Shown: piece by piece, positions 3,529 to 42,513 of the stretch
Layout: the number at the start of each line of letters is the position of its first letter
Numbering within the stretch: position 1 is the first letter of the stretch
Source: a virus
Reading direction: 5' to 3' (one strand)
Length of the DNA stretch: 47,998 bases
IMG/VR virus record: IMGVR_UViG_3300028284_000011
Span: 1 to 47,998 of that record
The notes under the pieces: generated by a model
Told to the model about the DNA's origin: nothing
Databases searched by the model: none
The model's input: the letters and a program-made list of their open reading frames with translations, nothing else
Translations under genes and position numbers: made by a program

Positions 3529-4683
3529 ATGTCAGAAGAATTAGAACAACAAGCACCTGAAGTAGAATCTACTCAGGTCGAAGAAAAACAACCTATGTCT
3601 TTCGAAGACGGGGTTATTAAAGTTGATTTAGCTGAATTTAACAAAGCTACAGAACAGGAACCTGTAGAGCAACAGCCTGAGGTTGAAGCTGTTACACCTG
3701 ATCAACCAAGCGAAGAAGTTATTGAAACACCTGTAGAAGCTGAAGAGCCTATGCAAGTTTTAGAGGAAATAACTGAAGAAGAAGTAGTAGAGCAAGTAGA
3801 GCAATTGAATGAAACGGTTTCTGAAGCAATTCAAGAACAACGCGAAACAGGTCAGCAATTACCTGATAACATTCAAAAAGTTGTTGAGTTCATGGAAGAA
3901 ACTGGAGGTACTCTAGAAGATTATGTGAAATTAAACACTGATTATGCTTCACTAGATGAAACTCAATTACTAAGAGAATACTATGAATCATCAAAACCTC
4001 ATTTAGATAGAGATGAAATTGACTTCTTAATGGAAGATAATTTCAGTTTCGATGAAGATGTAGATGACGAAAGAGATATTCGTAGAAAGAAAATGGCACG
4101 CAAGGAAGAGCTTGCAAACGCTAAAAGTCACTTAGATAATTTAAAGTCTAAGTATTACAATGAAATTAAAGCTGGTTCAAGATTGAATCCAGAACAAAGA
4201 AAAGCGGTAGAATTCTTTGACCGTTATAACAAGGAAAACGAAGAAGCAACTAAGATAGCTGAGCACCAGGTATCTACATTTAAAAGTAAAACGGAAGGAT
4301 TATTTTCTAACGAATTCAAAGGTTTTGATTTCAACATCGGAGATAAAAAATTCAGATACAAAGTAAATAATGTAGGTCAGGTGAAAGACACACAGAGCGA
4401 CATCAATAATTTTGTCAAGAAGTTCTTGAACGATAAGAATGAAATGAGCGACGCTGCTGGGTATCACAAGTCTTTATTCGCAGCTATGAACACAGATGCG
4501 ATTGCAAATCACTTTTATGAGCAAGGTAAAGCCGACGCAATGAAAAGTAGTATTCAAAAAGCCAAGAACATTGATATGAGTCCAAGAGGTGCTCATGAAG
4601 AAGTCAAAGCTTCTAACGGCTGGCAAGTACGAGCGATCAACCCTGGTGTTACTTCTAAGTTTGGAATAAAAACAAAAAAATAA
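3529..4683 (+). CDS. Probable capsid scaffolding protein
   Basis: 384 residues. The first about 110 are extremely acidic and Gln/Pro/Val-rich. A helical middle rich in Glu/Lys follows (about 150-240), then a more basic C-terminus ending KFGIKTKK. An acidic, helical, low-complexity protein encoded between portal and major capsid protein is the usual profile of a scaffold, which is expelled from the mature head. No protease motif was seen. The identification is from position and composition, not from a recognised domain. Confidence 0.72.
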   Translation: MSEELEQQAPEVESTQVEEKQPMSFEDGVIKVDLAEFNKATEQEPVEQQPEVEAVTPDQPSEEVIETPVEAEEPMQVLEEITEEEVVEQVEQLNETVSEAIQEQRETGQQLPDNIQKVVEFMEETGGTLEDYVKLNTDYASLDETQLLREYYESSKPHLDRDEIDFLMEDNFSFDEDVDDERDIRRKKMARKEELANAKSHLDNLKSKYYNEIKAGSRLNPEQRKAVEFFDRYNKENEEATKIAEHQVSTFKSKTEGLFSNEFKGFDFNIGDKKFRYKVNNVGQVKDTQSDINNFVKKFLNDKNEMSDAAGYHKSLFAAMNTDAIANHFYEQGKADAMKSSIQKAKNIDMSPRGAHEEVKASNGWQVRAINPGVTSKFGIKTKK

Positions 4684-6206: not shown

Positions 6207-7025
6207 ATGGCTAAAAAAGCTACAGCAAACAAAGTAGAGGTTGCACCTCAAGCAGTAACACCAGAGCTCCAAAAGCTCCTGCAAAACCAACCATGGGAAT
6301 ACAAGGATAGAACTTATTATTTAACAACAGGTAAGTCTCCTTTAATTTTTACTATTCCTGCAAGACACAATCAAAGAAAACCTTTATTGTATTTTGACCC
6401 GGCATTAGGGTATCAAAGAGAACTTAGATATGCCACTAACCAAAGAACTCCATTTGTAGATGAGCAAAAAGGAGAAAGTACTTTAGGTAGAATCGTTATG
6501 AGAAACGGAGTACTTAATGTAAAAAAAGAAGACGTAGCGTTACAACAATTGCTATCTCTTTATCATCCTTTAAGAGGCAAAATATATGCTGAGCTAGATA
6601 AGGAAAGAGAATCAGTTAATGAATTAGACTGGATCGAATTAGAATTAGAAGCATTAACAGCAGCTAAAAATATCGAAGTAGATCATGCAGAAGCTATTTT
6701 AAGATCTGAGTATGGTGAAAAAGTTACATCTTTATCTTCAAGTGAACTAAGAAGAGATTTAATGATTTTTGCTAAAAGAAACCCAGTTTTGTTTATTGAA
6801 CTAGCAGAAGATGAATCAATACAATTAAGAAACGTAGGTGCTAAAGCTGTAGAGGCCGGCGTGTTAAGATTATCAGCAGATCAACGTACATTTTCGTACG
6901 GAGAAGGAAACAGAAAATTAATGACTGTTCCTTTTGATGAACATCCTTATTCAGCATTAGCTTCTTTCTTTAAGACAGATGATGGTATGGAAGTTTACAA
7001 AGCAATATTAAAGAAAATTAGATAG
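6207..7025 (+). CDS. Conserved virion-module protein after the capsid gene
   Basis: 272 residues, no named domain recognised. The first 20 residues are a low-complexity linker (MAKKATANKVEV...). They are followed by a compact region with FTIPARHNQRKPLLYFDP and then a helical, Glu/Leu-rich second half. Genes in this position in crAss-like phages encode head-auxiliary or tail-connecting proteins, so a structural role is inferred from context only. It is set apart from the capsid gene by a hairpin and from the next gene by a second, weaker hairpin. Confidence 0.55.
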   Translation: MAKKATANKVEVAPQAVTPELQKLLQNQPWEYKDRTYYLTTGKSPLIFTIPARHNQRKPLLYFDPALGYQRELRYATNQRTPFVDEQKGESTLGRIVMRNGVLNVKKEDVALQQLLSLYHPLRGKIYAELDKERESVNELDWIELELEALTAAKNIEVDHAEAILRSEYGEKVTSLSSSELRRDLMIFAKRNPVLFIELAEDESIQLRNVGAKAVEAGVLRLSADQRTFSYGEGNRKLMTVPFDEHPYSALASFFKTDDGMEVYKAILKKIR

Positions 7026-8720: not shown

Positions 8721-11700
8721 ATGCCAGAGTTACTACATACATTCAATTCGGGGAAAATGAATAAAGACCTCGATGAAAGATTAGTGCCTAATGGACAATA
8801 TAGAGATGCGTTAAACCTAGAACTTTCTACATCAGAAGGATCTAATGTAGGTGCATTACAAACAGTGTTAGGCAATACTCTTAATTCTAATAAAAGTTTA
8901 AACCCTACTACAGGAGTTATAACGAAATGGACATCTAATTTTATATCAAACTTATCTAATCCTAAAGTAATAGGTACACACAGAGATAATATAAATGAAA
9001 AGATATATTGGTTCATCGCTTCGGATTCTATCAGTGCAATAGCTGAGTATGATCAAATAGATGACGTTATAGTGCCTATAGTGGTCGACGCTCAATCTAT
9101 TTTAAATTTTAGTACAAACTACTTAATAACTGGTATAAGTGCTTTAGAAGGCTTATTAATGTGGACTGATGATCAAACGGAACCTAAGCTAATAAATATA
9201 GAGCAGTGGAGAGAAGCATCAATAGATTTCGGTACTCATACTGTTTTCAATGGTAGAGATTTTTTGGAAAGTGATTTAACTGTAATTAAGAAGTATCCTT
9301 TAACCGCTCCAGAGTTATCATTAGCTAACACTAGAGCTGTGGATTCAAACGGTGACCCTGCTGTGGTAAGCAATGTTACTTCGGCTACTTTTACACAAGC
9401 AGATCCTGGAAATCCTGCGGAAATAATTGCAAATCCGCCAGGAACATCAAAAACACTTAATTGGTTACAAACTCCTTTACCTTTTTTTAGAGTAGGAGAT
9501 ACTTTATTGCTAACTACAAGTGGAGAAGACGATGATTCAAACCCTCAAAACTACGAAGCTAGAGTTCAAATAACTTCTATCCCAGCAGGTAACGAGCAAC
9601 CTTATGCTGTTGTAAGTGTATTATCTGTTTCTGAAAATGTACAAACAGGTGATTTACAGTGGGATACAATATTAGAAGAGGATGATCCTTTATTTGAATT
9701 TAAATTCCCTAGGTTTGCTTATAGATGGAAGTATGAAGATAATCAATATTCTTCTTACTCTCCGTTTACTTCAGTAGCTTTTTTACCTGGAGAATTCGAG
9801 TACAACCCTTTAAAAGGCTACAACTTAGGTATGAGAAACAGCCTGCGTCAGTGTCAAATATCAGAATTTATAACTTCAGATATTCCCGCAGATGTTGTTG
9901 AAGTGGATTTATTATATAAAGAATCTGGTAAGAATAGTGTATACAAGATAGATACATTTAAAAAAGATGATGAAATTTGGATTGCTGATAAATTTGATAT
10001 TGAATCAGAGATAATCAGTTCTGTTATACCAGCTAACCAGCTTATAAGACCATGGGATAACGTACCTAGAAAAGCTAAATCATTAGAAGTTAGCGGAAAT
10101 AGATTAATTTTTGGTAATTATTTACATAATTTTACATTGTTAAATAATCTAAACTTACCTATAAAGCCTTTAATAGATACTGTAATAGAGCCAAATCCTA
10201 CTTATGCTACTATACCTGGAGTTGCTCACCCTTCTATAAAATCACAAAGAACATATCAAGTAGGTGTAGTTTACCATGATAAATACGGTAGACAAACTCC
10301 GGTATTTACATCGGAATCTGCAGCTAGAAAATTACCTAAAGTAGAAGCTAATTTTTACAATAGAATATCAGCTCAGATATCAAGTTTGCCTCCTGAAGGT
10401 TTTACACATTTTTCTTTTTACGTTAAAGAAAACTCACAGCCTTATTATAACTTAGCAATGGATAGATGGTATGCTTCTGATGATCAGAATGTCTGGATAT
10501 CTTTTCCTTCAGCTGAAAGAAATAAAGTAAAAGAAGATTCTTTCTTGGAGTTAAAAAAGAGACATGACACTAATGACTTCGTTTCTGAACCAGCAAGGTA
10601 TAAAGTTATAGCTATTTCAGATGAAGCTCCTTTATTTATAAAAGAAAAAATACAGTCTTACGGCGCTTTAAGCACGAACTTCTTGGAAACAGGTTTTCCT
10701 TTAGAAGATTATTCATACGTAGATATTCCTAAAACAGCTTTTGAAGAGAGTACTATATTTGATGCATCAAAGCAATCAGATTCAATAGTAAGGATAATAG
10801 GCGGATCTAATAAGTCTAATTGGTATGATATAATATCAACTTCATTTTTAGAAACCGGAGGTGAAAGATACAGAGTAGCTATCCAAGGTAGATTTGGACC
10901 AGACATAAGCTTTACATCTACAGATGGTACGTATGAAAATAGAGTAACATCAGGGCTATCAATAGAAATGGCTGTTAAAAAAACAGAGAATAAGGCCGAA
11001 TTTGAGGGAAGGTTCTTTGTTAAGCTATATAGAGATTCTACTTTAGAAGCAAACGTATTAACTACAGCTAATGCAGATGAATACGCTATAAATACTTCTT
11101 TAAAAGTAGGTTATGTAAGCGCTGCATCTAATCTAGGTAGAAGCTGGTGGCAAAATTATGGAGCAAACTGGTTTATTGACAATGCTTACGCTATTGTTGG
11201 AGGAACAGGAGACGGTTATTCAGAAACAAATGGTACGTTTAACATAGATATATCTTTCGGAGGTATTTGGCCTGAAGGTTCTGATTTTAACGTAGGTAGA
11301 ACTGTGTACAGTGAGTATAAAGACTTTGTAGACGCAATAGAATCTACAGGTACTAGATTTAGATGGAAAGAAGATGGTCAAGAAACTGTATATGAGATAA
11401 CTTCATCTAGCAATAAAAGCAGGATACGTAATTACCGTAAAAGTTCTAGAACAGCATCATTTAACGACGGCTCTAACAAAAGAAAAAGATGGTCTATAAC
11501 TGCTAAAATAGTTTCAGATCCACCATCAAATGGTTTTTCACCTGTAGTAGGCAACGCTCAAAAAGGTTCTAGCGCTTACTCTATGGAAATATTAACGCCA
11601 TTTTATTTAGAAAAAAGCTTTACTAGCACAATACCAGGTGTATGGGAGACAGAACCTATTGAAGCTACTGAATTAGAACTTTATTATAAAGCATCTAATA

Positions 11701-37752: not shown

Positions 37753-37786
37753 TATTATCGTGGGTGCTTCGTATTACGTTTGCAAA
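37753..37786 (-). promoter_or_regulatory. Early promoter-like element (before the GP88-like gene)
   Basis: Reads TTTGCAAACGTAATACG, ten bases, then GATAATA on the - strand, ending 18 bases before the ATG at 37734. Member of an eight-copy family with identical 34-bp length. Confidence 0.8.
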
Positions 37787-37879
37787 TTAATACCAGCCAA
37801 CTGTTATAAAGCACCATGCAAGGAATATGCCGGTTAGTATTAATACTATTAGCTGTGGGATTTTAGATTTATTCTGCAT
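37787..37879 (-). CDS. 30-residue membrane microprotein
   Basis: ATG at 37879, TAA at 37787-37789, just before the promoter element. MQNKSKIPQ is followed by one hydrophobic helix (LIVLILTGIFLAWCFITVGW). It overlaps the end of the gene before it by 11 bases. Length and position fit the other microproteins of this region; no sequence family recognised. Confidence 0.5.
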   Translation of the reverse strand: MQNKSKIPQLIVLILTGIFLAWCFITVGWY

Positions 37880-38222
37880 CTTCTTCGATATTGAATAACG
37901 CTTCGATTTCGTAAGATAATGACTCAGCTATTTCGTCTACGTTTTGGAATTCGATGCTGCTTAACTCAATTTGGTTATTGTAGCCTATTTCAAAATCATA
38001 ATCATAATCACTACCGTTGTTGAAATCGTAGTTGTCAAGTACGTGTTGTATAGTTTCTCGTAGTTCATTTACTGTTTCTTTAGTAATCATAGGTTTATTA
38101 ACGTTAGCTAAGGATCGTTGTGCAATTGTTAAATCATCTTTAAGGGTTTTAGCGTTTAATTCTACTGCATTTAGTGTTAATTCTAAATCTTGTACTCTTG
38201 TTTCTAGTTCTTGTTTCGTCAT
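37869..38222 (-). CDS. Hypothetical early protein, coiled coil plus acidic tail
   Basis: 117 residues from the ATG at 38222, one base after the upstream stop; an earlier ATG at 38249 would overlap that gene. The first 45 residues form a coiled coil (LETRVQDLELTLNAVELNAK), the rest is very acidic (YDYDFEIGY, IEEDAE). Acidic, DNA-mimic-like composition is worth noting, but function is unknown. Confidence 0.6.
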   Translation of the reverse strand: MTKQELETRVQDLELTLNAVELNAKTLKDDLTIAQRSLANVNKPMITKETVNELRETIQHVLDNYDFNNGSDYDYDFEIGYNNQIELSSIEFQNVDEIAESLSYEIEALFNIEEDAE

Positions 38223-38223
38223 T

Positions 38224-38460
38224 TTATTCGGATTTATTAGATTTTTCAATTATTGAAGACATATATTTATATACTTCGATTTCAGTTAGTGTTGATTTAT
38301 ATATTAGCTCTAGTTGTTCAAAGCTTATTGGGCCAGTTAATTCTTCTTTTAATTCGTAAGCTAAACGATCGCGATCGATCTCTAGCATAGCGAGCTTAGC
38401 GAATACTTTATTGCTTGCACGCTGGTGTATAGCATTATTCACTTTCTTCGAACATTTCAT
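38224..38460 (-). CDS. Hypothetical early helical protein
   Basis: 78 residues from ATG 38460, which overlaps the upstream gene by 26 bases; an in-frame start at 38529 would overlap it by far more. Sequence MKCSKKVNNAIHQRASNK and LEIDRDRLAYELKEEL indicates helical structure with mixed charge. The 10-mer TGCTATACAC (38425-38434) is inside it and directly abuts the upstream gene's stop. Function unknown. Confidence 0.55.
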   Translation of the reverse strand: MKCSKKVNNAIHQRASNKVFAKLAMLEIDRDRLAYELKEELTGPISFEQLELIYKSTLTEIEVYKYMSSIIEKSNKSE

Positions 38461-38644
38461 AGGGTGAATCTTTAATTCTTGCGTGATGTTCCATATCGAA
38501 TAGGACGCCGTAATTAACATCGCGTACATATAATTTAGAGCTTAGTTCTTTAGCTATATTTTCGGCAATGTTAGGATACAATACAGTAAGGGCATCTAAT
38601 TTGATTTTGTTTTCTGAAGTTAGTCGATCAATTAAGTATTTCAT
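38435..38644 (-). CDS. Hypothetical early protein
   Basis: 69 residues, mixed charge (MKYLIDRLTSENKIKLDA, then LFDMEHHARIKDSPYEMFEE). Its start overlaps the end of the DnaA-like gene by 17 bases. It has its own promoter-like element inside that gene (38672-38705), 27 bases upstream. No domain recognised. Confidence 0.6.
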   Translation of the reverse strand: MKYLIDRLTSENKIKLDALTVLYPNIAENIAKELSSKLYVRDVNYGVLFDMEHHARIKDSPYEMFEESE

Positions 38645-38951
38645 ATAGTTCTTTTTTTATTTGTTCATTAATATTATCTTCAGTGGTACGTATTACGTCT
38701 GCAATATTCATTTTTAATTTCAAGTACATAGCTCGATCAACGTGCATGAATATGTTATTTACACCGTGTACTACTGTTGAGTGATCTCTGTTGACTGTTG
38801 CGCCGATAGCACTGAAAGTGTGCTCTGTAAATTCGCGGCTTAACTGGTAGTATAATGCTCTGGCATCTGAATGCTCTCGGTCTCGTTTTTTAGATTTTAG
38901 ATCTACACCTGAGTGTATCTCTACTAGTTTTTTAATGTATCTTAAGTTCAT
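38628..38951 (-). CDS. Stand-alone DnaA domain IV-like DNA-binding protein
   Basis: 107 residues. LKSKKRDREHSDARALYYQL leads to NRDHSTVVHGVNNI at 54-67, which is the signature of DnaA domain IV (GRDHSTVLHA-type), the helix-turn-helix that binds DnaA boxes. The AAA+ ATPase part is absent. It could bind phage or host DnaA-box-like sites and act as replication initiator, repressor or competitor of host DnaA. The dispersed TGCTATACAC sites resemble a DnaA box. ATG is one base after the lipoprotein gene stop. Confidence 0.82.
   Translation of the reverse strand: MNLRYIKKLVEIHSGVDLKSKKRDREHSDARALYYQLSREFTEHTFSAIGATVNRDHSTVVHGVNNIFMHVDRAMYLKLKMNIADVIRTTEDNINEQIKKELYEILN
38672..38705 (-). promoter_or_regulatory. 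Early promoter-like element inside the DnaA-like gene
   Basis: ATTGCAGACGTAATACG, ten bases, then GATAATA on the - strand; same 34-bp length as the other copies although it lies in coding sequence (it encodes IADVIRTTEDN). It would drive the gene starting at 38644. Confidence 0.7.
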
Positions 38952-38952
38952 A

Positions 38953-39066
38953 TTAATATCTCCAAGCTTTAGTATTGTTTGATTTACCGCATCTATTATG
39001 AGTTCTAGTGATCGTGCAACTAGATAGGAATATAATTATAATGATAAAAGTTAGGTAACGTTTCAT
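38953..39066 (-). CDS. 37-residue predicted lipoprotein
   Basis: ATG at 39066, TAA at 38953-38955. MKRYLTFIIIIIFLSSC is a lipoprotein signal with lipobox LSSC (Cys17), leaving about 20 exported residues (TITRTHNRCGKSNNTKAW). Small phage lipoproteins often block superinfection or modify the cell envelope; that role is an inference here. A TGCTATACAC copy (39068-39077) lies just upstream of the ATG. Confidence 0.65.
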   Translation of the reverse strand: MKRYLTFIIIIIFLSSCTITRTHNRCGKSNNTKAWRY

Positions 39067-39078
39067 AGTGTATAGCAT

Positions 39079-39345
39079 TTAGTCAAGTTGGTATCCTGTG
39101 GATAGTACAGCTTTGTCGGTTAGTTTTTGTTTTTCAATTTGTTCTTCTACATTGTCTAGAAAGTAATCTATACTCGCTAGCATTTCTTCTTTATTTCTTG
39201 ATCCGAACGATGTTGTAGGGCTATGCTTTAGTAGGCTTTCGTCGCTGCATCTGTATCCGCTAGCTAATTGGTCATTATATGTTCGCCATTCAATATACTC
39301 GTATTTAACGCCTCTGTAATTAAAAGTGGTTTCAGGTATTTTCAT
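39079..39345 (-). CDS. Hypothetical early protein
   Basis: 88 residues. Beta-like first half (TTFNYRGVKYEYIEWRTYND), helical second half with acidic patches (EEMLASIDYFLDNVEEQIEK). No motif recognised. It lies seven bases after the gene before it. Confidence 0.6.
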   Translation of the reverse strand: MKIPETTFNYRGVKYEYIEWRTYNDQLASGYRCSDESLLKHSPTTSFGSRNKEEMLASIDYFLDNVEEQIEKQKLTDKAVLSTGYQLD

Positions 39346-39352
39346 AATAATT

Positions 39353-39658
39353 TTATTTTAATGTTGTTTGATCGTGGTATGCTTCTTTAAATTCATAAGT
39401 AATATCTTCCTCGAACTTCTTGAAAGAGTTTACGCCGTATAGTTTTTCGTATAGTTCTTTGAAGCCTTGGTATCTACAGTACTGATCGTTTATATAGTAT
39501 GCTATTTCGACATCGCTTATTTCGTGCTCATAAACTTTTTCACGATCCATAACGTTACTCCATACGGTTGCTTCTACTTTGAATAAACCTAAGTCTTTAG
39601 TGAATCCAGTGCTTAAACTGTAACTTTTGTCCTCGAATGTTTTAGTTATTTTACTCAT
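39353..39658 (-). CDS. Hypothetical early protein
   Basis: 101 residues, rich in Tyr/Glu/Lys (SKITKTFEDKSYSLSTGF, VEIAYYINDQYCRYQGF). Beta-rich start, helical end. No domain recognised. A 133-base noncoding gap with a tRNA-like element separates it from the gene upstream. Confidence 0.6.
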   Translation of the reverse strand: MSKITKTFEDKSYSLSTGFTKDLGLFKVEATVWSNVMDREKVYEHEISDVEIAYYINDQYCRYQGFKELYEKLYGVNSFKKFEEDITYEFKEAYHDQTTLK

Positions 39659-39679
39659 ATCATTTAATTTAATTAGTTA

Positions 39680-39787
39680 GTGACTAGTGAGGAATCGAAC
39701 CTCATACTCGTCAGTAGTAATGCCTCGTTAATTAGCTCGATGTCCCACGGTTACTGCTTCAAACGCACTGCATACCATACCTAGCCG
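39680..39787 (-). tRNA. tRNA-like element, atypical or degenerate
   Basis: On the - strand a canonical T-arm is present (TGAGG-TTCGATT-CCTCA, 39688-39704), followed by CTAGTCA plus C as a 3' acceptor strand. CGGCTAG about 100 bases upstream pairs with it at six of seven positions (one G-T wobble, end mismatch). Between them I find only a short D-arm-like hairpin with GGT in its loop. A seven-base loop GTTTGAA on an imperfect stem (possible UUG, Gln) and about 48 bases that fit no normal variable loop follow. It may be a degenerate tRNA, an interrupted tRNA or a tRNA mimic. Confidence 0.4.
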
Positions 39788-39791
39788 TTGT

Positions 39792-39965
39792 TTACTTGTT
39801 TAGTTGATCGTATATTTTACTTACTACTCGGTGCATAAGCTCAGTGTGTATAGCATTGTATTCGTCGCCGTCTAGTGACGCTTCGGCTAGTTGCCAGTCG
39901 CATGCACTGTGAATCTTAGGTGTCATTTCTTTAGCGATTCGGTTTACTTTAATTTGCATGTTCAT
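39792..39965 (-). CDS. Hypothetical early protein
   Basis: 57 residues from the ATG at 39965, one base after the upstream stop; a longer reading from 40019 would overlap that gene. Sequence MNMQIKVNRIAKEMTPKIHS, then AIHTELMHRVVSKIYDQL: helical, no motif. It contains TGCTATACAC at 39846-39855. Confidence 0.55.
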   Translation of the reverse strand: MNMQIKVNRIAKEMTPKIHSACDWQLAEASLDGDEYNAIHTELMHRVVSKIYDQLNK

Positions 39966-39966
39966 A

Positions 39967-40227
39967 TTATATACAGTTTTTTTGGTTAAATTCAAATAAC
40001 ATTTTGATACGATCTTCAAGGTTTTTAACTAACACTCGCTTGTAGTTGTAGTTGGTTGTATTCCACTCAGTAGGTTCGGCTACTTTGATTTTCTTGTTGA
40101 TCTGGTATAGTAGTTTACTTTGTGACTTAGTACTTACTCTTATGTATCCGGAAGGATATGCGACGCCTACTCGCTTGTCGCTTAATGTGAAGTAATAAGT
40201 GTCGTTGATTATTTTATTTAATTGCAT
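39967..40227 (-). CDS. Hypothetical early protein
   Basis: 86 residues, basic, beta-then-helix (YYFTLSDKRVGVAYPSGYIR, NYKRVLVKNLEDRIKMLFEF). It is the first gene after the promoter-like element at 40251-40284, 23 bases away. Function unknown. Confidence 0.6.
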   Translation of the reverse strand: MQLNKIINDTYYFTLSDKRVGVAYPSGYIRVSTKSQSKLLYQINKKIKVAEPTEWNTTNYNYKRVLVKNLEDRIKMLFEFNQKNCI

Positions 40228-40250
40228 AGTATTATTATTTAGTTCGTATA

Positions 40251-40284
40251 TATTATCTTAGGTGTGTCGTATTACGTTTGTAAA
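40251..40284 (-). promoter_or_regulatory. Early promoter-like element
   Basis: TTTACAAACGTAATACG, ten bases, GATAATA on the - strand; 23 bases before the ATG at 40227. Confidence 0.8.
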
Positions 40285-40288
40285 TCTA

Positions 40289-40597
40289 TTAAGAATATTC
40301 TTCGTTCGCAGAGTTAGCATCAAAGTATGCCCACATACACTTGTTTATAAATTCTTTAGTATCTACACTTGCTCTTTCAATAGGAAAGTTCCATACCATT
40401 TTCTCGTAGAATTGTGTTAAACCTTTATCGCGGCAACTCCATTGACTATCGAACGCAGTGTAATCATCACCTTGCATAAAGTTCAAACCTATTATTCTGT
40501 GTCTACAATTGTACTCTATATACATCCATCGATCGTGTTCTTCACTCCAAACATGTTCTACTTTAGTTACTCTATCTGTATCTTCTATGTTACTCAT
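40289..40597 (-). CDS. Hypothetical early protein rich in Trp/Cys
   Basis: 102 residues. Repeated aromatic residues (HVWSEEHDRWMYIEYNCRH, SQWSCRDKG, CMWAYFDAN) and three Cys suggest a compact, perhaps metal-binding fold. The ATG overlaps the stop of the 58-residue gene before it (ATGA). No family recognised. Confidence 0.6.
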   Translation of the reverse strand: MSNIEDTDRVTKVEHVWSEEHDRWMYIEYNCRHRIIGLNFMQGDDYTAFDSQWSCRDKGLTQFYEKMVWNFPIERASVDTKEFINKCMWAYFDANSANEEYS

Positions 40598-40770
40598 AAT
40601 ATTCTTTTTAGTTGTTCTTTAATTAATAGTATATCTTCGTCACTTACTTCAAAGTCGTAATCAATATCTCGTTCGCTTAAAATGTTCCACATAGCGTCGT
40701 GAAAGTTGTCGCCTACTATTTCATCTAAGCGATAAGCGATCTCTTTTATTTCATCACATGTTATCTTCAT
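40594..40770 (-). CDS. 58-residue acidic early protein
   Basis: ATG at 40770, TGA at 40594-40596 overlapping the next start. Strongly acidic and helical (MKITCDEIKEIAYRLDEIV, DIDYDFEVSDEDILL). Acidic early phage proteins can mimic DNA or inhibit host enzymes, but nothing specific points to that here. One base separates it from the zinc-binding microprotein upstream. Confidence 0.6.
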   Translation of the reverse strand: MKITCDEIKEIAYRLDEIVGDNFHDAMWNILSERDIDYDFEVSDEDILLIKEQLKRIL

Positions 40771-40771
40771 A

Positions 40772-40867
40772 CTATTCTTCTTCGTTAAATTCCGCCCACT
40801 CTAGGCAATCTCCACATCTTTCATCACTCAGGTAACTCGGTCCTGCACCGCAACAATTACTTATCAT
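40772..40867 (-). CDS. 31-residue Cys-rich microprotein
   Basis: ATG at 40867, TAG at 40772-40774. MISNCCGAGPSYLSDERCGD then C: CC...CxxC spacing fits a zinc knuckle. Very short phage proteins of this kind (starting with a CCGA-type motif) are familiar from other phages. It has its own promoter-like element 23 bases upstream. Confidence 0.6.
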   Translation of the reverse strand: MISNCCGAGPSYLSDERCGDCLEWAEFNEEE

Positions 40868-40890
40868 ATTCTTTATTTTTTATTCATTAT

Positions 40891-40924
40891 TATTATCTAC
40901 ACCGTATCGTATTACTTTTGCAAA
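40891..40924 (-). promoter_or_regulatory. Early promoter-like element
   Basis: TTTGCAAAAGTAATACG, ten bases, GATAATA on the - strand; 23 bases before the ATG at 40867. The first half overlaps the end of the 52-residue gene upstream, whose stop TAA is part of it. Confidence 0.82.
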
Positions 40925-41070
40925 TTTATTTTCTCTTTTAAATCCCACAATCTATAGTATCTAACTCTCACTTCGGGTTCTCTATCGTCTTGGTAGTCAT
41001 CATTTAATTGTTCCATTAATGTCTCTATAGATAGAGTAAGATCACTTATTTCTTGTTTACTGAATTGCAT
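40912..41070 (-). CDS. 52-residue early protein
   Basis: ATG at 41070, TAA at 40912-40914 inside the promoter element. Helical and charged (FSKQEISDLTLSIETLMEQL, REPEVRVRYYRLWDLKEKI). Function unknown. Upstream, 41071-41150 is noncoding and holds two copies of GGTATTACA and a TG-rich stretch. Confidence 0.55.
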   Translation of the reverse strand: MQFSKQEISDLTLSIETLMEQLNDDYQDDREPEVRVRYYRLWDLKEKINLQK

Positions 41071-41150
41071 AGTTTAAGGGGGTATTATTTGTTTATAGGG
41101 TAAAAAGGTATTACAGGTATTACACTGTGTCTGTGAGTGTGTGAGGTACT

Positions 41151-41330
41151 TTAAATCACACTAAATAGATCATTTGCTAGTTCTTCTTCAGTTTCGTCGC
41201 CTTCTATAGTACAGTTGATTTCTACAAAGTCTTTGATTTCTTGTTTTACTTCACTTTCACTAACGTAGGAAGACATGAATTTGAAGTGATCAATGGTTTC
41301 TTCATTCCAATAGAATTTTGAGGTTTTCAT
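41151..41330 (-). CDS. 59-residue acidic early protein
   Basis: ATG at 41330, TAA at 41151-41153. Acidic and helical (TSKFYWNEETIDHFKFMSSY, then EGDETEEELANDL). The promoter-like element at 41376-41409 lies 45 bases upstream. No domain recognised. Confidence 0.6.
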   Translation of the reverse strand: MKTSKFYWNEETIDHFKFMSSYVSESEVKQEIKDFVEINCTIEGDETEEELANDLFSVI

Positions 41331-41375
41331 AGTAGTAATATTTAGTTAGTTATTTATTTATTTTTCTTACATTAT

Positions 41376-41409
41376 TATTATCGTATGGTGGACGTATTAC
41401 TCTTGCAAA
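41376..41409 (-). promoter_or_regulatory. Early promoter-like element
   Basis: TTTGCAAGAGTAATACG, ten bases, GATAATA on the - strand; 45 bases before the ATG at 41330. Confidence 0.8.
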
Positions 41410-41444
41410 ATTTTTAATAGAATAATCACCTAAACTTAGTTATA

Positions 41445-41528
41445 TACCGAAAGTACCGAAAATGCTATACGCGTTGCTATACACACTACGTGGTAGTGGT
41501 ATTGTTTTTTTAAGCAGATGTACCGAAA
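41445..41528. other. Candidate replication origin or control locus
   Basis: Noncoding apart from the last bases. It has TACCGAAA at 41445-41452 and 41454-41461 and a third copy at 41521-41528 inside the next gene. TGCTATACGC (41463-41472) and TGCTATACAC (41475-41484) lie on the + strand, 12 bases apart. Next comes a hairpin CACTAC-GTG-GTAGTG (41482-41496). Iteron-like repeats beside DnaA-box-like sites at the place where the 10-mer changes strand is origin-like. Origin function is an inference. Confidence 0.45.
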
Positions 41529-41650
41529 GCTTCTATTGCTCGTTGCATTCGTAGTTGATCTTCAGTGAACACTACTTCTTCTTTGTTTACTCGTGTTATT
41601 TGTACACACTTAGTACCGTCAGGTCGGGTGATGATCTCTTTTTTATACAT
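41510..41650 (-). CDS. 46-residue early protein
   Basis: ATG at 41650, TAA at 41510-41512. Sequence MYKKEIITRPDGTKCVQITR, then EDQLRMQRAIEAF: a beta hairpin plus a helix. Five bases after the membrane microprotein gene. No family recognised. Confidence 0.55.
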   Translation of the reverse strand: MYKKEIITRPDGTKCVQITRVNKEEVVFTEDQLRMQRAIEAFGTSA

Positions 41651-41654
41651 AATG

Positions 41655-41768
41655 TTATACTGGAATGTATGGAGTGGATGTTTTCAATCCCCAGATTATT
41701 AGTGTCCAAAATATTGTAGTTATCACAACTACCATTATAAAAAACTTTGTTTCTTCTGATATTTTCAT
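41655..41768 (-). CDS. 37-residue membrane microprotein
   Basis: ATG at 41768, TAA at 41655-41657. A short charged start (MKISEETK) and one membrane helix (FFIMVVVITTIFWTLIIWG). It starts one base after the stop of the gene before it. Possibly a membrane-targeted early function; unknown. Confidence 0.55.
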   Translation of the reverse strand: MKISEETKFFIMVVVITTIFWTLIIWGLKTSTPYIPV

Positions 41769-41769
41769 A

Positions 41770-41976
41770 TTATATTTGTTTTAGTAATTCAGTTAATCTT
41801 TCAGTATTAGTGTAGTTTAGTTTGTCATCAAACCAATCTTGATCTACTATGTTATTGTTTAAGAAGTAATCGAATATGTTGTTTTCGTTTGTTACATTAT
41901 CTTCACTTCCCCAGTATTCTGGATTTGTATTTAGTTTGTTAATTTCGTTTGTTATTACATTTTTAGTTACTTGCAT
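41770..41976 (-). CDS. 68-residue early protein
   Basis: Rich in Asn/Asp (NTNPEYWGSEDNVTNENN, then FLNNNIVDQDWFDDKL), acidic. The promoter-like element at 42001-42034 ends 24 bases before its ATG. Function unknown. Confidence 0.6.
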   Translation of the reverse strand: MQVTKNVITNEINKLNTNPEYWGSEDNVTNENNIFDYFLNNNIVDQDWFDDKLNYTNTERLTELLKQI

Positions 41977-42000
41977 AGTTTATTTATTTATTTACATTTA

Positions 42001-42034
42001 TATTATCTTTATGTATTCGTATTACTTTTGTAAA
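42001..42034 (-). promoter_or_regulatory. Early promoter-like element
   Basis: TTTACAAAAGTAATACG, ten bases, GATAATA on the - strand; 24 bases before the ATG at 41976. It begins just after the stop codon of the upstream gene. Confidence 0.8.
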
Positions 42035-42039
42035 AGAGG

Positions 42040-42357
42040 TTATTCAGCAACCTCTTCTACTTCAACAAATGTTGCAAGATGTCTAACATTTGAAGGTAAG
42101 TTTGTACTTTGAGACCAGTAACCTCTCTTGATCCAACAAGGCATTATTGATAGTTTAGGTAACATTGCATTTAATACCTCATCATGATTATAAGTACATA
42201 CTTGTTTCTTATTATTAGTAAAGGTTATTACTTGATTTCTACCTAACCAACTTTTTCTTACTACAAAGTTCTTTCTTACAATAGGTGGGAAGATCAATGC
42301 TTTCTCTTCATTAGACATTTGTGCAATCGCATTGGTAATCATTTCTTGATTTGACAT
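42040..42357 (-). CDS. First gene of the leftward operon, hypothetical
   Basis: 105 residues. MSNQEMITNAIAQMSNEEKA is helical; the rest is beta-rich and basic with two Cys and several Trp (VVRKSWLGRNQVITFTNNKK, IMPCWIKRGYWSQS), then an acidic end (VEVEEVAE). As the first gene behind two tandem promoters it should be the earliest product. A host-takeover role is plausible but unsupported by any motif. Confidence 0.62.
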   Translation of the reverse strand: MSNQEMITNAIAQMSNEEKALIFPPIVRKNFVVRKSWLGRNQVITFTNNKKQVCTYNHDEVLNAMLPKLSIMPCWIKRGYWSQSTNLPSNVRHLATFVEVEEVAE

Positions 42358-42393
42358 AATTTATTTATTTAAGTTATTATTTATATTCACTAT

Positions 42394-42427
42394 TATTATC
42401 GTTGAACACTCGTATTACTTTTGCAAA
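42394..42427 (-). promoter_or_regulatory. Early promoter-like element (proximal of a tandem pair)
   Basis: TTTGCAAAAGTAATACG, ten bases, GATAATA on the - strand; 36 bases before the ATG at 42357. Confidence 0.83.
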
Positions 42428-42479
42428 TTTATTTATATTCTAAATTCATAATTCAATATTCATATTCTTTATTCACATA

Positions 42480-42513
42480 TATTATCGTAAAGGCATCGTA
42501 TTACTCTTGCAAA
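42480..42513 (-). promoter_or_regulatory. Early promoter-like element (distal of a tandem pair)
   Basis: TTTGCAAGAGTAATACG, ten bases, GATAATA on the - strand. No gene lies between it and the copy at 42394, so the two probably act together on the first early gene. Confidence 0.78.

Follow-up and report, generated by a model that had tools for sequence, protein, structure and literature searches.

Putative early promoters of a Flavobacteria-infecting podovirus and a phage-encoded sigma factor as their proposed reader

Phage-encoded sigma factors acting in cascades are exemplified by gp28 of SPO1 and gp55 of T4, while the promoter of T7 has the sequence TAATACGACTCACTATAG. For bacterial sigma factors, the sigma-28 (FliA) consensus is TAAAGTTT-N11-GCCGATAA (PMC2859248), and the sigma-A box of Flavobacterium psychrophilum is TAnnTTTG at −12 to −5 (PMC9723704). 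Here we analyze a repeated element in the virus record IMGVR_UViG_3300028284_000011 (positions 1 to 47,998, the whole of which is referred to below as the window), together with a sigma-70-family factor encoded by the same phage. Judging from its sequence and genomic position, the element is very probably a promoter. The portal protein of the window phage matches those of podoviruses of Flavobacterium, Cellulophaga, Maribacter and Tenacibaculum, and of an uncultured one, with ~26−53% identity. This is a widespread marine group with Flavobacteria as hosts, and a common one among phages of Bacteroidota (portal relatives are encoded on at least 599 IMG/VR stretches), but transcription in it is almost uncharacterized; a literature search on promoters of these phages returned nothing directly relevant.

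A 40-base element on the early strand

As the original prediction had it, eight copies of a 34-base sequence are present on the minus strand of the window, whereas none is expected based on 100 dinucleotide-preserving shuffles. From the first copy to the last, they differ from TTTGCAAAAGTAATACG-N10-GATAATA at 1, 3, 2, 0, 1, 1, 0 and 1 positions. Beyond these eight, the window contains no other match with up to three mismatches, and a profile scan of the window gave, in addition, two weak plus-strand scores, both within genes. The predicted distance of 18−45 bases between the end of the copy and an ATG likewise holds for seven of the eight; the remaining copy (at 42480) is located 52 bases upstream of the seventh. 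In the list below each copy is extended to 40 bases, for reasons given further on.

37747−37786, minus strand: putative early promoter copy 1, from −39 to the predicted +1; GATAATA is 18 nt from the ATG of a gp88-like gene (37129−37734)
38666−38705, minus strand: putative early promoter copy 2, 27 nt upstream of the ATG at 38644
40245−40284, minus strand: putative early promoter copy 3, 23 nt upstream of the ATG at 40227
40885−40924, minus strand: putative early promoter copy 4, 23 nt upstream of a 31-aa Cys-rich open reading frame (ORF) at 40772−40867
41370−41409, minus strand: putative early promoter copy 5, 45 nt upstream of the ATG at 41330
41995−42034, minus strand: putative early promoter copy 6, 24 nt upstream of the ATG at 41976
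42388−42427, minus strand: putative early promoter copy 7, 36 nt upstream of the ATG at 42357
42474−42513, minus strand: putative early promoter copy 8, in tandem with copy 7 and without a start codon of its own

The product of the short Cys-rich ORF immediately downstream of copy 4 has the sequence MISNCCGAGPSYLSDERCGDCLEWAEFNEEE.

To place the element in its family, we scanned 16 genomes encoding the phage sigma factor (sigma-bearing) and six cultured or named relatives lacking it (sigma-less), two of the latter to 50 kb only. In 15 of the 16 sigma-bearing genomes there are 4−13 strong copies, all on a single strand; in the sixteenth (G014) the early region is missing from the contig. No copy was found in the reversed-sequence control or in the six sigma-less relatives as far as they were scanned. 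The profile derived from 199 copies reads TTTRCAAAC-NN-AATACGA-N8-nGATAATATAwwTG, followed by an A-rich stretch, and the consensus of 399 non-redundant copies is the same. The architecture is rigid: the N10 spacer between the blocks occurs in 104 copies versus two for all remaining lengths between 6 and 15 in the same genomes, the distance from TRCAAA to AATACG is always 3, and GATAAT occupies motif positions 28−33 in 394 of 399 non-redundant copies. All eight copies in the window do have the 34-base unit originally described, but the conserved unit is longer, ~40 bases, and includes TATAwwTG after GATAAT. Similarly, the ten middle bases are constant in length, as had been noted, but not all of them vary freely: the first is mostly A throughout the family, and many genomes have one and the same base in all their copies at the last position, −13. 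Within-genome identity at −13 is 0.73 compared to 0.32 in shuffles (z 35), and the base differs between genomes. Positions −31, −36 and −26 are genome-specific too, if less strongly, and the spacer hardly so. Such genome-specific bases suggest that the reader is not the same in all phages.

Start codons are phased relative to the element. Among the 399 non-redundant copies, all 26 ATGs at motif position 40 open a frame of 40 codons or more, compared to 13 of 174 ATGs at position 38, and a second peak of start codons falls at positions 59−62. The genes that would be leaderless include that of the sigma factor itself and families recurring across genomes. Because start codons peak at position 40, this position is likely to be +1, which in turn places GATAAT at −12 to −7, the usual distance of a −10 element. 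Nearly all copies have a purine at the predicted +1, usually preceded by T. Both the exact +1 and the assignment of the element to the early or middle class are deduced from sequence. The label of early promoter given in the original prediction is supported by the single strand, the location in the early module, the fixed distance to start codons and conservation across the family.

Comparison with host, sigma-28 and T7 promoters

Promoters read by flavobacterial sigma-A (PMC9723704) share with the phage element a TTTG-like upstream block and AT-rich surroundings, but the latter differs in having GATAAT at −12 to −7, an over-long spacer and a strictly conserved additional AATACGA. One of the origins proposed earlier, a host promoter adapted by the phage, is not supported by the data: TAnnTTTG is missing from the right place, and sigma-bearing genomes, unlike their sigma-less relatives, show no enrichment of this box ahead of genes. 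Intergenic stretches upstream of genes contain 64 TAnnTTTG boxes in 18.4 kb in the sigma-less relatives (5.4-fold enrichment, p 4e−25) versus 22 in 42.6 kb in sigma-bearing genomes (0.69-fold, p 0.09); the difference between the two groups has p 3e−17, with the reservation that they represent different lineages and phylogeny confounds the comparison. More than any other result, this contrast indicates that the sigma-bearing phages lack the usual reliance on host sigma-A, which we consider unlikely to be the main reader of the motif. TATAwwTG at positions 33−40 was also considered as a Bacteroidota −7 box and dismissed, since it would place +1 beyond the leaderless ATGs at position 40.

The element also resembles sigma-28 promoters in part. 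GATAA is present in nearly all phage copies, with a C directly before it in 182 of 399 (CGATAA, ~46%), an AAA core is found in the −35 block about one base off the sigma-28 register, and the phage sigma has a RIKGAI-type region 2.4 as in sigma-28. On the other hand, GCC of the sigma-28 −10 element GCCGATAA is not conserved in the phage motif, the counterpart of the −35 TAAA is CAAA (−35 to −32, 278 of 399 copies), shifted one base further upstream, and the phage element has the extra AATACGA and the genome-dependent base at −13. AATACGA (−28 to −22) is additional relative to sigma-28-type promoters and could be a protein-binding site, so that an operator within the promoter, the other origin proposed earlier, is conceivable. 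The likeness to sigma-28 is a resemblance and not membership.

The element also contains the string TAATACG known from the T7 promoter, with a G 17 bases past its first T. However, the bases at −10 to −1 in the T7 register are variable and the predicted start site lies 29 bases past the first T, and a T7-like reading was rejected on these grounds. A search of 10 genomes with PF00940 for a single-subunit RNA polymerase gave no match, but neither did the control. A virion RNA polymerase like gp66 of crAss phages was considered as well and rejected: the 2170-aa protein of the phage has neither a DxDxD string nor a significant Pfam match.

Candidate readers: the phage sigma factor and its competitors

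The following features of the window bear on how the element might be read.

34381−35130, minus strand: phage sigma-70-family factor with regions 2 and 4 (Pfam Sigma70_r2, 1.7e−7; Sigma70_r4, 9.7e−6), proposed promoter reader
35127−35747, minus strand: helix-turn-helix (HTH) protein whose gene overlaps the start codon of the sigma gene (HTH_11, 3e−5, just below cut-off)
3512−3528, plus strand: candidate late promoter element ttatataatattttatc, abutting the ATG at 3529
6192−6206, plus strand: candidate late promoter element aaatcatattatatt, abutting the ATG at 6207

Regions 2 and 4 and the sigma fold, which matches that of sigma-A, place the phage protein in the sigma-70 superfamily. Its best single-sequence match in PDB is sigma-28 (1rp3, 1.2e−6), while with the alignment as a query sigma-A chains score about equally to sigma-28. 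In region 2.4, KRIKGSI/KRIKGAI of the phage proteins aligns with LRIKGAI of sigma-28; residues K95, F97, K100, R101, G104, R107 and R108 are invariant in phage sigmas, and the stretch between regions 2.4 and 3.0, both included, hardly varies. No match was found among 50,697 phage records, whereas relatives are encoded at 61 IMG/VR loci, most of them 50−78% identical. Among 49 further contigs, the sigma gene is present on all those that are 55 kb or longer and have at least five motif matches, except for G031, in which the motif copies lie within the first 3 kb and are directed off the contig end. In four genomes (G001, G002, G003 and G005) a motif copy abuts the sigma gene, suggesting autoregulation. 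The HTH protein has a confident AlphaFold model (pLDDT, predicted local distance difference test, 89) that matched no solved structure in a fold search, and is possibly a co-factor. It could not be found in two genomes, G009 and G070, that have the motif and the sigma, so that of the two proteins the sigma is the more likely to be an indispensable reader.

A second element, consisting of AT only and having TATY or ATTATATT as its end immediately before the ATG, is conserved at the genes starting at 3529 and 6207 and at many of their orthologs in sigma-bearing genomes. It was not seen at the orthologs in sigma-less genomes, as far as these allowed a comparison. The element is a candidate late promoter that would give leaderless mRNA. 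As in the cascades of SPO1 gp28 and T4 gp55, the sigma is encoded in the early/middle region and there is a separate late element; in contrast to those cascades, the promoters here are on the early strand and, in some relatives, at the sigma gene itself.

Based on the sequence, spacing and strand of the motif, its start-codon phasing, its co-occurrence with the sigma, and the misfit and non-use of the host box, we infer, with somewhat more than even confidence, that the motif is read by the phage sigma. In the proposed mechanism, host core RNA polymerase carrying the phage sigma in place of host sigma-A would recognize TTTRCAAAC (−39 to −31), AATACGA (−28 to −22) and nGATAATA (−13 to −6), and would start transcription at the purine 6 bases past GATAATA. 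The resulting transcripts would be either leaderless, starting from AUG, or, most often, would have an A-rich leader of ~19−22 bases, and the elements would serve as early/middle promoters of this podovirus.

Several observations weigh against the phage sigma as the reader. The match of the element to sigma-28 promoters is imperfect, with CAAA instead of TAAA and a spacing one base longer, and the protein itself, scoring 39.3 bits against the FliA/WhiG cut-off of 189.6 (TIGR02479), is not a FliA ortholog. Co-occurrence of motif and sigma is confounded with phylogeny. No consistent host promoter for the first synthesis of sigma was found, and in most genomes TAnnTTTG is missing close upstream of either the early module or the sigma gene. 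An exception is G017 (L095), where a host-type box, TATCTTTG, is located 25 nt upstream of the sigma ATG and the HTH gene is further off; this box is possibly a host promoter starting sigma synthesis. Finally, the base at −13 has changed about 12 times on the tree with no sigma residue tracking it, the sigma residues expected to read it are constant, no protein column clearly tracks it after a rough phylogenetic correction, and without correction the HTH neighbor scored above the sigma. Comparing changes in motif bases with those in sigma or HTH residues likewise left no clear signal after tree correction, and this line of evidence was set aside. A co-factor, or differences between hosts, may be involved in the behavior of −13.

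Alternatively, the motif could be a strong early promoter read by host polymerase with sigma-A, with or without a host activator on the upstream boxes, and the phage sigma would serve the AT-only late element, as in the T4 scheme. The start-up problem would then be solved, many copies do stand ahead of small early genes, as is typical of immediate-early promoters read by the host, and rare motif copies are found in Flavobacteriaceae chromosomes; the very existence of a distinct late element keeps this alternative alive. Yet sigma-A would have to act without a TAnnTTTG box at −12 to −5, and the sigma-less relatives, which do use this box, are devoid of the motif. A site with up to one mismatch is missing from 393 of 400 Flavobacteriaceae genomes, which is odd for a promoter read by sigma-A, and the genome-specific bases suggest a variable reader. 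We therefore regard this scenario as rather unlikely. Another phage protein, be it the HTH protein, an injected one or one yet to be recognized, might instead bind the upstream blocks, much like MotA in T4, and activate polymerase with either sigma. The two upstream blocks together cover 18 bases, more than a usual −35 element. The gene of the HTH protein, found in nearly every genome with the motif, overlaps that of the sigma, and before correction no columns were more strongly associated with the base at −13 than HTH columns 163 and 137. That association, however, is not outstanding after phylogenetic correction, and the two genomes without a detectable HTH protein retain the motif, making such an activator an improbable explanation. 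Many same-strand copies with genome-specific bases also resemble families of repressor sites, so that the copies might represent repeated protein sites (iterons, immunity operators or stoperators) rather than promoters. Start codons phased at 40 and 59−62, the canonical −10 distance, the purine at +1 and the fact that copies nearly always point into the following gene make this highly improbable.

Copies in host chromosomes and other features of the phage

An exact-pattern scan of bacterial genomes matched ten stretches, most of which look like mis-binned phage contigs, as they contain either more than one motif copy or genes known from these phages. A Polaribacter contig (L322/L330), however, has an exact copy ahead of a MORN-repeat gene, and a different contig (L332) has a weaker copy ahead of another such gene. 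Seven of 400 Flavobacteriaceae genomes have a site with up to one mismatch (eight sites, at least one of them inside a coding region), compared to none in the reversed control. In L334, L335 and L337 the ATG of a small exported protein is at motif position 60, although the L334 frame is apparently broken; in L339 the site precedes a MORN-repeat gene, and in L336 it is within a coding region. A looser scan of 148 genomes yielded 25 sites versus one in the control, many of those examined being within genes. Collectively, copies in L330, L332, L339, L334, L335, L337, L354, L356 and L357 precede genes for MORN-repeat, DUF285-like, MGIFDFF-type and small exported proteins, in several cases at a distance like that in the phages, and several of the chromosomal copies in Flavobacteriaceae sit in clusters of small accessory genes. 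In hosts with chromosomal copies, the phage sigma has weak matches and no close relative. It is conceivable, if doubtful, that such accessory genes are switched on by infection through a borrowed phage promoter, with the phage supplying the reader; the evidence for this consists of the seven of 400 genomes at up to one mismatch and a few further loci. In L321 (4600−4790), the motif and a leaderless HAD-like gene (MKKIIYIDMDGV) are found immediately after tRNA-Asp at the contig end. Relatives of this gene are present in L093 and L106, contigs of these phages, and the locus may represent an integrated phage, an integration junction, or a mis-joined or mis-assembled phage.

Between the divergent late and early modules of the window there is an imperfect inverted repeat, GcGACAgTAG..CTAtTGTCAC (42740−42784, minus strand), followed, down to about 42600, by AGATATacAGaAGTAA and CCAGCCCCC blocks; the repeat and the blocks recur in many relatives. 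The region from 42784 to about 42600 is a candidate origin, operator or first promoter. A dyad scan also revealed five coding repeats, ATCGGGAC-N4-AGTCC, in a tail-fiber-like ORF (45110−47430), which are not promoters. Rfam and tRNA scans of the window gave no match. The 1455-aa structural protein encoded at 8721−13088 has a C-terminal Crassvirus muzzle domain (PF25729, 2.5e−8), although the phage is a podovirus whose relatives include Flavobacterium elemo and Cellulophaga phages.

If the phage sigma is indeed the reader, this group of phages would have exchanged host sigma-A promoters for a promoter/sigma pair of its own, which would offer a handle on how such a phage begins transcription without a host-type promoter. 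The group would have leaderless mRNAs for some early, and possibly also late, genes, in hosts without Shine-Dalgarno initiation. The pair would, in addition, represent a testable orthogonal promoter/sigma system for Bacteroidota.

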